Source of the DNA: Phytoactinopolyspora alkaliphila
GTDB taxonomy: Bacteria > Actinomycetota > Actinomycetes > Jiangellales > Jiangellaceae
Direction: 5' to 3'
DNA: 64,000 bases
NCBI RefSeq assembly: GCF_010550695.1
Contig: NZ_JAAGOB010000001.1
Span: forward strand, 124,001-188,000
The notes beneath the pieces were generated by a model. It was given only the letters and a program-made list of their open reading frames with translations, was not told the DNA's origin and ran no database searches. Within the stretch, counting starts at the first letter, position 1. Each line of letters starts with the position of its first letter. Shown here in pieces: positions 5,384-56,048 of this stretch. Both the position numbers and the translations under genes were made by a program.

Positions 5384-5396
5384 GGAACGCCCGCTT

Positions 5397-5622
5397 TGCC
5401 ACCTGATCGTCGAAATGTCGTCTGATCATTTTTCGTCGCGGTAACGTCGGCGGATGATCAGATGACTGAAGCACGTCTGTAGGTCGCGCCACGTCATCTG
5501 ATCCCGCGACGTTCGTATCGTGAGATGTGATCAGATGATACACAGCCGGCCCGAACACGTCGATGTGTCGTCTGACTCTGGGCAAGGGAATGATCAGGCG
5601 ACATTTCGACGATCAGGTGACA
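5397..5622. repeat. Family 1 box-array element, copy 1 (GATCAG boxes)
   Basis: The outer arms 5397-5430 and 5589-5622 are inverted repeats matching at 32 of 34 positions. Eight GATCAG/CTGATC boxes start at 5403, 5422, 5456, 5498, 5529, 5572 (degenerate, CTGACT), 5592 and 5611, in the order reverse, reverse, forward, reverse, forward, reverse, forward, forward. Boxes 3 and 4 form a perfect 11-bp stem (GATCAGATGAC with GTCATCTGATC); boxes 5 and 6 form a weaker one. The element fills the gap between the convergent hflX and S9 peptidase genes, ending 3 bases from the peptidase stop. A second copy lies at 54336-54562. Confidence 0.9.
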
Positions 5623-5625
5623 CAA

Positions 5626-39557: not shown

Positions 39558-39797
39558 ACCGGCTGTTCTTCCCACGAAGATCTTCACGGCCCGAGTGGGA
39601 TGTGTCGTGTGAGAATGGCCGGTCTGAAGCGGCGATTCCGTGCACGACAGTTCGCACGACGGCGACAACGCGCACATGAGCGGGCAGAACTCACACGATC
39701 ACCCTCACAGCTGCCGCGGCGCCCGGCCAAACCCACACGGCCGTCATCACGGCTGCGGGGCTGACCGGCAGGATTCACACGGTTCCGCCCACGACGC
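39558..39797 (+). repeat. Family 2 box-array element, copy A (TTCACACG boxes)
   Basis: A 240-bp element running outward end to inward end. Boxes are CGTGTGAG at 39606, then TTCGCACG 39651, CTCACACG 39690, CCCACACG 39732 and TTCACACG 39774. Offsets from the outer end are 48, 93, 132, 174 and 216. The segment 39623-39667 differs from copy B at only 3 of 45 positions. The outer end begins ACCGGCTG and the inner end is CACGACGC in both copies. It lies 25 bases after the ftsQ stop. The remaining 139 bases to the next gene hold one perfect DnaA box. Confidence 0.88.
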
Positions 39798-39936: not shown

Positions 39937-40899
39937 ATGAATGATGAGGCGCGCACACGATCCCTGGACACGTCGCCGAAGGCGGCTGAAGACGCGCTCT
40001 TGATGCTGAGCCGAGAACAGCACTCGACGTTCAGTCGTCGGCAGGCCCTGGAGTGCGGCTTCACTCGTCATCAGATCATTACGCGATTGAGCCGCGGGAC
40101 ATGGATTGTCGTCCACCCCAAGGTGTACCGGATCGCGGCAACCCCGGACACGAGGGCTTCGGTGGCGATCGCGGGTCGGCTTTATGCAGGTGAGCGAGCC
40201 TGGTTCAGCCACGCGACGGCAGCGCGGCTGTTGGGTATCGATCCGTACATTCCGACGGACCGCACGTGGGTCACTGTTCCGGCGGCGGTTCAGCGTCCTC
40301 GGCGTCCGGGCTTGATCATCGTCCGATCCCGCCGCATCGAAGGCTTCACCGGCACGGCGCACGGCCAACCGGTTCTCGATGCACGGCGTACGGTGATCGA
40401 CCTGGCGGCCATCCTTGAAGATCAGCTGTTTCGGCGTGTCCTGTATGACGTGTTCGGCCGGGACATCATGACGGTCGACGACGTGCTGGCCGCCGCTGAG
40501 GATTTCGGCGGCAGGACCGGCCTGGCGCTGGTGCATCGGGCCGTCGAGGATTTCGACCCCGCATCTGAATCGGGAGCCGAGTACGAGGCCGACGCGCTCT
40601 TCGCGGGCGCGGGACTGGTCTTCGAGCGGCAGTATGAGATTCGTGAAGATGGCATCCTGGTGGCGCGCCTTGACTTCGCGGACGAGGGGCTCAGGCTAGG
40701 CGTTGAGATCGACGGCGCACGGTTTCACTCCACGCCGTCGGCGCGCTTCTACGATCGCGAACGAGACAAGGCACTCACTCGGAAGGGTTGGCACATCGAG
40801 CGTCTGACCACGGACGACGTCCGTCGTCGACCGAACACGACCATTCGGCACCTGCGTGCCATCTGCGCGCAAAGGAGCGAGGCGCACCGCGCCGCCTGA
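39937..40899 (+). CDS. AbiEi-type winged-helix protein fused to DUF559 (Vsr-like) nuclease domain
   Basis: A 320-residue protein. Residues 20-100 match the AbiEi antitoxin-like winged helix (FSRRQALECGFTRHQIITRL, WIVVHPKVYRIAATP). The C-terminal 110 residues match DUF559, a PD-(D/E)xK fold related to Vsr endonucleases: SEYEADALF (Glu), VARLDFADEGLRLGVEIDG (Asp, Glu-x-Asp) and the DRERDKALTRKGWHIERLT tail. No AbiEii toxin partner is adjacent. Such orphan fusions are frequent in actinobacteria; the function is unproven. It is bracketed by the two inverted family 2 repeats inside the dcw cluster. No strong ribosome site precedes ATG 39937. Confidence 0.85.
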   Translation: MNDEARTRSLDTSPKAAEDALLMLSREQHSTFSRRQALECGFTRHQIITRLSRGTWIVVHPKVYRIAATPDTRASVAIAGRLYAGERAWFSHATAARLLGIDPYIPTDRTWVTVPAAVQRPRRPGLIIVRSRRIEGFTGTAHGQPVLDARRTVIDLAAILEDQLFRRVLYDVFGRDIMTVDDVLAAAEDFGGRTGLALVHRAVEDFDPASESGAEYEADALFAGAGLVFERQYEIREDGILVARLDFADEGLRLGVEIDGARFHSTPSARFYDRERDKALTRKGWHIERLTTDDVRRRPNTTIRHLRAICAQRSEAHRAA

Positions 40900-41111: not shown

Positions 41112-41352
41112 GCGTCGTGAGCTCGGCCGTGTGAAGTGCGCCCCCGCCATCCTGCAGCTGTGGGTGGAGCCGTGTGAACATGGCCGGGAGTGTGGCTGGT
41201 CGTGGACGCAGCCGTGTGAGTTCTGGCCGCCGATGTCGTTGCTGTCGCCGCCGTGCGAACTGCCGTGCACGGAATCGCCGCTTCAGGTCGCACTTTCTCA
41301 CACGGCACATCCCACCCAGGCCGTGATGATCGTCGTGCAAGAGGCAGCCGGT
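41112..41352 (-). repeat. Family 2 box-array element, copy B (inverted)
   Basis: The reverse complement aligns end to end with 39558-39797. Its boxes, read from the outer end 41352, are at offsets 48, 93, 132, 174 and 217, the same as copy A to within one base. The rest of the gap 40900-41453 (212 bases before the element, 101 after) shows no gene, promoter or terminator I can support. Confidence 0.88.
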
Positions 41353-54326: not shown

Positions 54327-54335
54327 CGGCGCCTT

Positions 54336-54562
54336 TGCCACCTGATCGTCGAATTGCCTTCCGATCATCACGCGTTGCCCGGCCATGCGGGCCCAGGCGA
54401 TCAGATGACAGAAACGGCGAATGCTCCGCCACTATGCCATCTGATCGTCCAGCGTCCGCATAGCGAGACGCGATCAGGTGACCGAACTGCGACGTGAGCG
54501 CCGGTTTGCGCATCTGATCGTCTCGGTAGGGCTGATCAGGCGACAGATCGACGATCAGGTGA
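54336..54562. repeat. Family 1 box-array element, copy 2 (GATCAG boxes)
   Basis: Boxes start at 54342, 54361 (CCGATC), 54399, 54441, 54472, 54514, 54534 and 54553 in the same orientation order as copy 1. Spacings are 19, 38, 42, 31, 42, 20, 19; copy 1 has 19, 34, 42, 31, 43, 20, 19. The left end shares CTTTGCCACCTGATCGTCGA with copy 1, and the right end shares TGATCAGGCGACA and TCGACGATCAGGTGAC. The outer arms match at 15 of the first 16 positions but are weaker inside. The right arm overlaps the end of the PAP2-kinase gene and supplies its stop codon. Confidence 0.9.
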
Positions 54563-56014
54563 CGAAGCGGGGGCGGGCAACGTTGGGCGGTAGACCGCCA
54601 GAGCGCCGGGCAACTTGCCGAAGGCGCACGAGCTGACCTTGCCGACCGCCTCACCGTCGCAGGCCAGCCCCACCTCCTCGCCGAGCGCTTCCAGTTTCAG
54701 GGTGCGCAGCGTGCGCGAGACATGCACTCGGCTGCGCTCACCGGTTCCGGTGAGGATCGCGAGCACCGCGCGGGTCCGGGAGAAACGGCCCTCGGCCGAC
54801 AGGTACTGCACGTCGAGGTAGCCGTCGTCGAGGCGGGGCCGCCAGGCCGGGAAGGTTCCGCGCGGCACGTAGCAGCCGTTGCCGACGAACACCAGCCAGA
54901 CGCTGACGGGCTCGCCGTCGAGCGCCACCCGCAGCGGCTGGTGCGCGTGCAGCACCTGCCCGGCCGCCAGCGCCATGGCCAGCCATTTGCCCCACCTGTG
55001 CTCCAGTGCTTCCCGGCGCCGCACCAGATCCGGGTAGCCGCCGATGCTCGCGGTGTTGAGGAAGGTGCGACCGTCGGCGGTGGCAATGTCGACGGCCACG
55101 GCCTGACCAGCCTCCACCGCGGTGCGTACGTCGTCGAAACCCTCGAGCCCGACGTCGCGAGCGAAATGGTTGAGAGTGCCGGCGGGAAAGATCGCGAGCG
55201 GCAGGCGGTGCGCGACCGCCACGGCTGCCGCCGCCGCGACGGTCCCGTCCCCGCCGGCCACCCCGAGGGCACGCACCACGCCGCGCCTGCTCGCCAGCAC
55301 AGCCTCGATATCGACGTCGGCGTCCAGTTCGACCACCTCCGCCTGGGGGAGGAGCCCGAGGATCTCCTCGCGGGGGCTTCCCGGGCGACCCGATGCCGGA
55401 TTGACCACGACGAGCATGCCCTCGCCACGGGGTAGCGCCGGTGCCGGCGCACCGTGCCGGATACGGGCGGGGATCCGCGGATGGACCGGCCACCAGCGCC
55501 GTCCGGCGAGGGCTACCCCGGCGCCGAGCACCGCCCCGGCGACGACGTCGCCGACGTGGTGGACGCCGACGTGGACTCGGGAGTACGCGACCGCCGCCGC
55601 CAGTGGCGTCACCGCGGCACCGAGCGCGGTGTTCTCCATGGCGACACCCGTGGCGAAGGCGGCCGCCGACGCGGCGTGTCCGCTCGGAAAGGAGGTGGTG
55701 ACCGGCTCGCGGGTCAGCCTGCGGATCGCGGGCGTCAGTTCCGCATCCGGCCGCCGTCGGCGGATCAGCGGCTTCAGGACACCGTTGGCGACGGCGCTGG
55801 TTACGGTGAGGGTGGCGATTCCACGGCAGGCCGCCCGGCGTGTCTGGCCCGGCACGAGCACGCCGACCGCGGCGATGGCGAGCCAGAGGCGGCCCTTGTT
55901 GGCCGCTTGGCTCAGCCCGCGCATAGCGGTGTCGAGCTGACGAGGACCCGGTGTGTCCTCGCTCGGCACCGTCCTGGTGCCTATCCCGGCGGCCCGGACA
56001 GATGTCCTTCGCAT
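54536..56014 (-). CDS. PAP2 phosphatase fused to diacylglycerol/sphingosine kinase-like domain
   Basis: A 492-residue fusion found in actinobacteria. The N-terminal 180 residues are a type 2 phosphatidic acid phosphatase: KPLIRRRRPD, TTSFPSGHAAS and SRVHVGVHHVGD, with several membrane helices. The C-terminal domain is a lipid kinase: LVVVNPASGRPGS, VAGGDGTVAAA, and FPAGTLNHFARD. It may interconvert or salvage phosphatidate-type lipids. ATG 56014 has GAGGAGAGAC directly upstream. The last residues SSPDRRSVA and the TGA stop are encoded by the right arm of the GATCAG repeat, so the C-terminus was probably altered when the repeat arrived. Confidence 0.9.
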   Translation of the reverse strand: MRRTSVRAAGIGTRTVPSEDTPGPRQLDTAMRGLSQAANKGRLWLAIAAVGVLVPGQTRRAACRGIATLTVTSAVANGVLKPLIRRRRPDAELTPAIRRLTREPVTTSFPSGHAASAAAFATGVAMENTALGAAVTPLAAAVAYSRVHVGVHHVGDVVAGAVLGAGVALAGRRWWPVHPRIPARIRHGAPAPALPRGEGMLVVVNPASGRPGSPREEILGLLPQAEVVELDADVDIEAVLASRRGVVRALGVAGGDGTVAAAAAVAVAHRLPLAIFPAGTLNHFARDVGLEGFDDVRTAVEAGQAVAVDIATADGRTFLNTASIGGYPDLVRRREALEHRWGKWLAMALAAGQVLHAHQPLRVALDGEPVSVWLVFVGNGCYVPRGTFPAWRPRLDDGYLDVQYLSAEGRFSRTRAVLAILTGTGERSRVHVSRTLRTLKLEALGEEVGLACDGEAVGKVSSCAFGKLPGALAVYRPTLPAPASSPDRRSVA

Positions 56015-56048
56015 GTCTCTCCTCGTGTCTTCCCGCACTGCCGGCATC

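Follow-up and report, generated by a model that had tools for sequence, protein, structure and literature searches.

In our preferred reading, the two box arrays described here are the non-autonomous members of a nuclease-repeat system, which would operate in the manner of RAYT-REPIN, and we assign to this reading a probability of about two in three. They lie in a stretch of 64,000 nucleotides, hereafter the window (G000:C1:124001-188000), which belongs to a 5.5-Mb, 33-contig, Phytoactinopolyspora-like genome of the Jiangellaceae (G000). The association of the repeats with a gene for a nuclease-like protein is well supported, and it is neither universal nor corrected for relatedness. We infer that this partner protein binds, cleaves and moves the DNA.

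The window holds two arrays of the same layout

The preliminary description of this DNA had claimed eight GATCAG/CTGATC boxes in each of two arrays at convergent gene ends. Both arrays are there, each with seven exact boxes and one mutated box (Table 1). The claimed spacings (19, 34 or 38, 42, 31, 42 or 43, 20 and 19) were confirmed in both copies, and recomputation gave the same values for copy 1, namely 32 of 34 matching positions in the outer arms and an 11-bp perfect stem at boxes 3-4. The window contains 77 matches to GATCAG, compared with 36.6 expected and with 52 in the top one of 100 shuffles. When copy 1 was compared with its own genome by BLASTN, 73 matching pieces were obtained, several per copy. 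It is mainly because of this recurrence in the genome that we do not take the arrays for chance. The PAP2/kinase-like ORF (54536-56047, minus strand) terminates within copy 2 (54536-54565); hence, its final codons and stop are supplied by the left end of the repeat.

Table 1. Positions of the repeats and of the associated genes, in window coordinates unless a contig is given
Feature	Position	Strand	Remarks
Copy 1, family A, 8-box form	5396..5623	-	hflX / S9 peptidase gene gap; R1 94.9 bits
Copy 1, 6-box arm	5454-5623	-	
Copy 1, inverted left-end copy	5397-5430		
Copy 1, box starts	5403r, 5422r, 5456f, 5498r, 5529f, 5572, 5592f, 5611f		box at 5572 damaged (CTGACT)
Copy 2, family A, 8-box form	54335..54565	-	rluD / PAP2/kinase-like gene gap; R1 108.7 bits
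Copy 2, 6-box arm	54397-54565	-	
Copy 2, inverted copy of left end			
Copy 2, box starts	54342r, 54361, 54399f, 54441r, 54472f, 54514r, 54534f, 54553f		box at 54361 with one mismatch (CCGATC)
Family-A partner gene	G000:C30:120885-121832		outside window; between two inverted arms
Partner-gene homolog, family B	39937..40899	+	profile A2, 104.5 bits
Family B left 240-bp arm	39558..39797	+	upstream of gene; inverted-repeat score 103 with right arm
Family B right arm	41112..41352	-	inverted relative to left arm

The constant unit is a six-box arm

A script for spaced boxes yielded 38 cores that passed its filter, and these were aligned (alignment A1). The constant unit is an asymmetric six-box arm of ~170 bp with modal box offsets of 0, 19, 39, 81, 112 and 154 (spacings 19, 20, 42, 31 and 42). 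The eight-box form consists of this arm followed, after a variable gap, by the 34 bp of its left end repeated in inverted orientation, and the gap before this extra right-hand end is the only spacing that varies among copies. Each box has the core GATCAG, or its complement, within a longer flanking consensus near RTG-N3-AAC. In the alignment, conservation was strong over the 34 bp of the left end and was also seen at the centre (consensus CGTCTCACNATGTGGACGC); the fillers varied. Mean column identity was 0.98 in the box columns and 0.59 in the 114 other columns, a contrast inflated by the picking of the 38 copies by box match. The earlier observation of conserved spacing without conserved filler was thus upheld by box offsets and column identities across copies, and the position-specific search proposed with it uncovered further copies in the genome and in relatives, with near-fixed spacing.

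Selection on a multi-stem structure, also suggested at that time, found no support in the folding and covariation analysis. RNAalifold predicted 15 pairs on the 38 copies, of which 0 had changes on both sides, and the ten column pairs with the highest mutual information could pair in at most 22 of the 38 sequences. No Rfam family reached its gathering score within the window. The RNA-structure reading was dropped, since the folded and aligned copies were free of compensatory change. Because conservation is much higher in the box columns than in the fillers and compensatory pairs were not found, we favor reading the boxes as putative protein sites on DNA, that is, the arrays as probable protein-binding arrays.

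Arms are dispersed, patchy in abundance and variable at single sites

Using a sequence-only model of the arm (R1), we counted by hand no fewer than 59 distinct sites in G000 with scores of 79 bits and above, a lower bound since 150 of 3608 candidates were scored. R1 matched 13 of 40 genomes, comprising 12 of the 22 family genomes and one weak match outside the family (E 0.005). These counts agree with the proposal of a REP-like dispersed element. A phage or plasmid origin was considered and rejected: viral contigs had no exact match to the left-end pattern, and copy 2 was without a match in plasmids at E 1e-5.

In G004, 82 of the at least 150 matches paired up in inverted orientation without overlap, giving 41 pairs whose outer span ranged from 430 to 1466 bp. 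Fourteen two-arm copies from this genome had a mean arm identity of 0.87 within copies, compared with 0.78 between copies (largest 0.99), which suggests that arms are homogenised within copies. The outer halves of the arms agreed better than the inner halves.

Individual sites differed among relatives. An R1 arm was found beside the S9 gene in 0 of 9 Jiangellaceae loci. By eye, hflX neighbors S9 in 6 of these 9 loci, 2 of the 6 carrying other hairpins. In the S9 peptidase protein, Phytoactinopolyspora species come closest among named relatives (85-87% identity), followed by a MAG (82%) and by Jiangella (80-81%). At the rluD 3' end, arms were present in G000 and G011. The rluD stop is separated from a motif conserved in the following gene by 262 bases in G000, 158 in G002, 57 in G003 and 28 in G001; such gap sizes fit insertion into short gaps, and loss at a single site would be possible as well. 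A palindrome starting TAAATGATCATGTGAAGTGGG lies between hflX and S9 in P. halotolerans (L044:5903-5992), and the rluD 3' end of G002 (L287) holds a hairpin near-identical to it.

The near-fixed spacing, in which 42 and 31 bp are close to whole helical turns, and the column identities of boxes and fillers (0.98 vs 0.59, a contrast raised by copy selection) would also be compatible with static, non-mobile arrays at which a chromosome-organising protein of the host binds. We regard this as unlikely, as arm abundance is patchy inside one genus, from no match in G002 and G003 to at least 150 arms in G004, the element is present or absent at the orthologous rluD site, and a nuclease-like gene is bracketed by arms (see below).

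Most arms lie just beyond gene 3' ends

We have then located the left ends of 39 arm copies in G000 relative to genes called with a simple codon-usage script. In 32 of the 39 copies the left end pointed toward the 3' end of a gene, in 27 of these at most 33 bp beyond the stop, and it faced gene starts in 6 of the 39; from the arrangement of neighboring genes in the window, one would expect roughly half to face 3' ends. Such a placement, together with the low-energy folds of both window copies on both strands (obtained without a shuffle control), would be compatible with two-way transcription terminators, with the arms folding in the transcripts of neighboring genes and ending them. However, terminators would leave the bracketed gene without explanation; further points against them are the left ends that face gene starts, the lack of both-sided change in all 15 predicted pairs (38 copies), and that the element is missing from relatives at both window sites, except for G011 at rluD. 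We consider this explanation decidedly improbable.

Family-A arms bracket a gene for an AbiEi/DUF559-like protein

Inspection of eight long-spaced arm pairs revealed that three of them (G000 L020, G004 L170 and G014 L175) surround a homologous gene, listed for G000 in Table 1. The G014 gene is split in two pieces, yet this genome has 33 arm places at 64 bits or more (hand count). Three of the other five pairs had no called gene between them. The remaining two may hold cargo: one surrounds a glyoxalase-like gene (Pfam; L038:974-2077) and the other a short, putatively CsbD-like ORF (L174:831-1667).

The partner protein combines an AbiEi-related N-terminal part with a DUF559/Vsr-like C-terminal part. 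The family-A protein itself had no Pfam match at E 0.01 and a sub-threshold DUF559 match of 16 bits, and NCBIfam had no family for two family-A proteins; the AbiEi assignment of its N-terminal part is based on the alignment with homologs. Over 27 homologs, Pfam found AbiEi_4 in 18, DUF559 in 5, AbiEi_3_N in 3 and MTES_1575 in 1. The homolog profile matched the endonuclease-like chain 3hrl (E 4e-4), and its N-terminal part gave no significant match to Abi proteins (E 0.6-0.7). Residues E215, D246, E257 and G260 are conserved to 90% or more. No nucleotidyltransferase-like toxin gene was recognised by eye beside the partner gene at three loci.

Close orthologs of the partner gene co-occur with arms

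Among the family genomes, arms were present in 8 of 8 with an ortholog of at least 59% identity and in 4 of 14 without one (Fisher p = 0.0015, computed without correction for relatedness and with a threshold chosen after seeing the next homolog at 52%). R1 arms stood on both sides of the close ortholog in G000, G004, G011 and G014 (4 of 8); G010, G013, G015 and G018 (4 of 8) had them on one side. None was found at the 22 other homolog loci searched. Thus, gene presence correlates with repeat abundance, as it does for RAYT-REP/REPIN, with G021 being contrary. This main exception has 80 arm matches (some of them one place matched on both strands) and no close ortholog; 27 of its 31 best matches lacked at least the first 8 positions of the model, and its arms may be an orphan family. 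G001, G016 and G020 also had a few arm matches and no close ortholog.

Many of the more distant homologs have inverted repeats of their own

The window itself contains a further example, a homolog of the partner gene flanked by the inverted arms of a second repeat family, B (Table 1). Pieces of the left family B arm matched 8 other loci in G000 and places in G001 and G009 (23 genomes searched), and TCACACG-like motifs recur in the family B arms and in several of the matching loci. A single-sequence structure prediction for this homolog had a mean pLDDT of 40.5 and was not used.

We have performed a flank test on 43 of 50 homolog loci, L196, L202, L204, L208, L213, L214 and L219 being omitted because they met a contig end, had a broken gene or carried non-standard coordinates. 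Among the 129 control genes was the homolog at 39937-40899 in the window (score 21). The 95% level of these controls was exceeded by the inverted repeats spanning the gene at 31 of the 43 loci, with 28 among the 37 distant loci and 3 among the 6 close ones (p = 2e-14), and 12 loci were without strong inverted flanks. A palindrome on one flank barely set homologs apart, 23% and 30% lying beyond the 95% level of the controls. In a phylum-wide draw, homologs were found at E 1e-8 in 61 of 198 genomes. There, 12 of 29 loci had scores of more than 21 (the null, 784 mismatched pairs, peaked at 20), and 17 of 29 lacked strong flanks; excluding L257, L261 and L266, which are cut by contig ends and have unreliable gene positions, left 10 of 26 above 21.

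The similarity of the repeats tracked that of the proteins (Mantel r = 0.67, 0 of 2000 permutations) over 29 of the 31 positive loci, L199 and L200 having no usable protein. This correlation would also arise from joint inheritance of a gene and its flanks. It seems very improbable that the nuclease-like gene is a mere passenger of repeats moved by an unseen enzyme, which would pick up genes between arms: other genes do lie between arms (L038 and L174) and in G021 arms occur although a close ortholog is missing, but in many lineages genes of this one protein family lie between differing repeats, and the correlation just given also counts against a passenger.

Several homologs are bordered by a hairpin of the form CATGATCAT...ATGATCATG. 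It was found at 10-118 places in 19 of the 22 family genomes and at 6 in G026, and the reversed pattern had 0 matches in those genomes. By hand count, one stem family made up 12 of the 27 hairpins listed for G015, two of them bordering the homolog at 7587116-7588003; in G017, one stem family made up 8 of the 15 listed, two of them bordering the homolog at 2882020-2882892.

Proposed mechanism and its meaning

If the arrays are non-autonomous repeats of this nuclease-repeat system, the N-terminal part of the partner protein would bind the box sites, and an arm or arm pair would be held in the complex or extruded as a hairpin. The nuclease part would then cleave, leading to the copying of arms into other intergenic gaps. 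On a wider scale, we see an even chance that AbiEi-DUF559/Vsr-like nucleases, each able to recognise and copy palindromes or box-array arms of its own, form an unreported class of mobile repeats in Actinomycetota, a convergent and independent non-HUH counterpart of RAYT-REPIN. Judged by titles and the beginnings of abstracts, none of the top-ranked open-licence papers dealt with a link between these proteins and such repeats. Were the proposal true, REP-type systems would have had a second, independent origin, from an unrelated nuclease-like family with its own repeats. It would also suggest where intergenic palindromes come from in actinobacteria that lack RAYTs, and a protein family to which no function has been assigned would gain a testable role.

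Comparison with known systems

In RAYT systems, as described in PMC2817692 and PMC3116915, the gene lies between two inverted repeats, the repeats are dispersed intergenically, and gene and repeats co-vary; the REP-type systems of these accounts depend on one enzyme class, the tyrosine transposases. A bracketed gene, dispersed intergenic repeats and gene-repeat covariation are found here too, the gene lying between inverted repeats at 31 of 43 loci and at 4 of 8 close orthologs, that is, not in every case. The system differs in its AbiEi/DUF559-like partner protein and in its family-A arms of ~170 bp with six sites. A REP-associated tyrosine transposase, suggested earlier as a possible partner, was looked for: Y1_Tnp (PF01797) was found in 0 of 23 genomes (15 from the 22-genome family), having been detected in 5 of 14 control genomes, and none of the 27 homologs had a Y1 domain. 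Membership in RAYT/REP was rejected because this defining Y1/HUH transposase was not found.

The likeness to MITEs lies in short copies with inverted ends next to a larger, gene-holding form, with terminal inverted repeats in the two-arm G004 copies (0.87 arm identity, 14 copies). Unlike in MITEs, the enclosed gene matches no Pfam transposase family, and no target-site duplication was found in 13 G004 and 9 G000 elements; a flank word of 4 or more bases at one offset was common to at most 2 of 13 and 2 of 9 elements, respectively.

AbiEi type IV antitoxins are resembled through the AbiEi_4 domain of 18 of the 27 homologs, and PMC7319586 describes the binding of AbiEi proteins to inverted repeats within the promoters of their own genes. 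In contrast to these antitoxins, the C-terminal part here is DUF559-like, and the repeats flank the gene on either side besides being dispersed, those of family A chiefly to the 3' ends of genes. The DUF559/Vsr-like endonucleases are resembled through DUF559 in 5 of the 27 homologs, the MTES_1575 REase in 1 and the match to 3hrl (E 4e-4), whereas the putative nuclease part of the present proteins is fused to an AbiEi-related part and linked to repeats.
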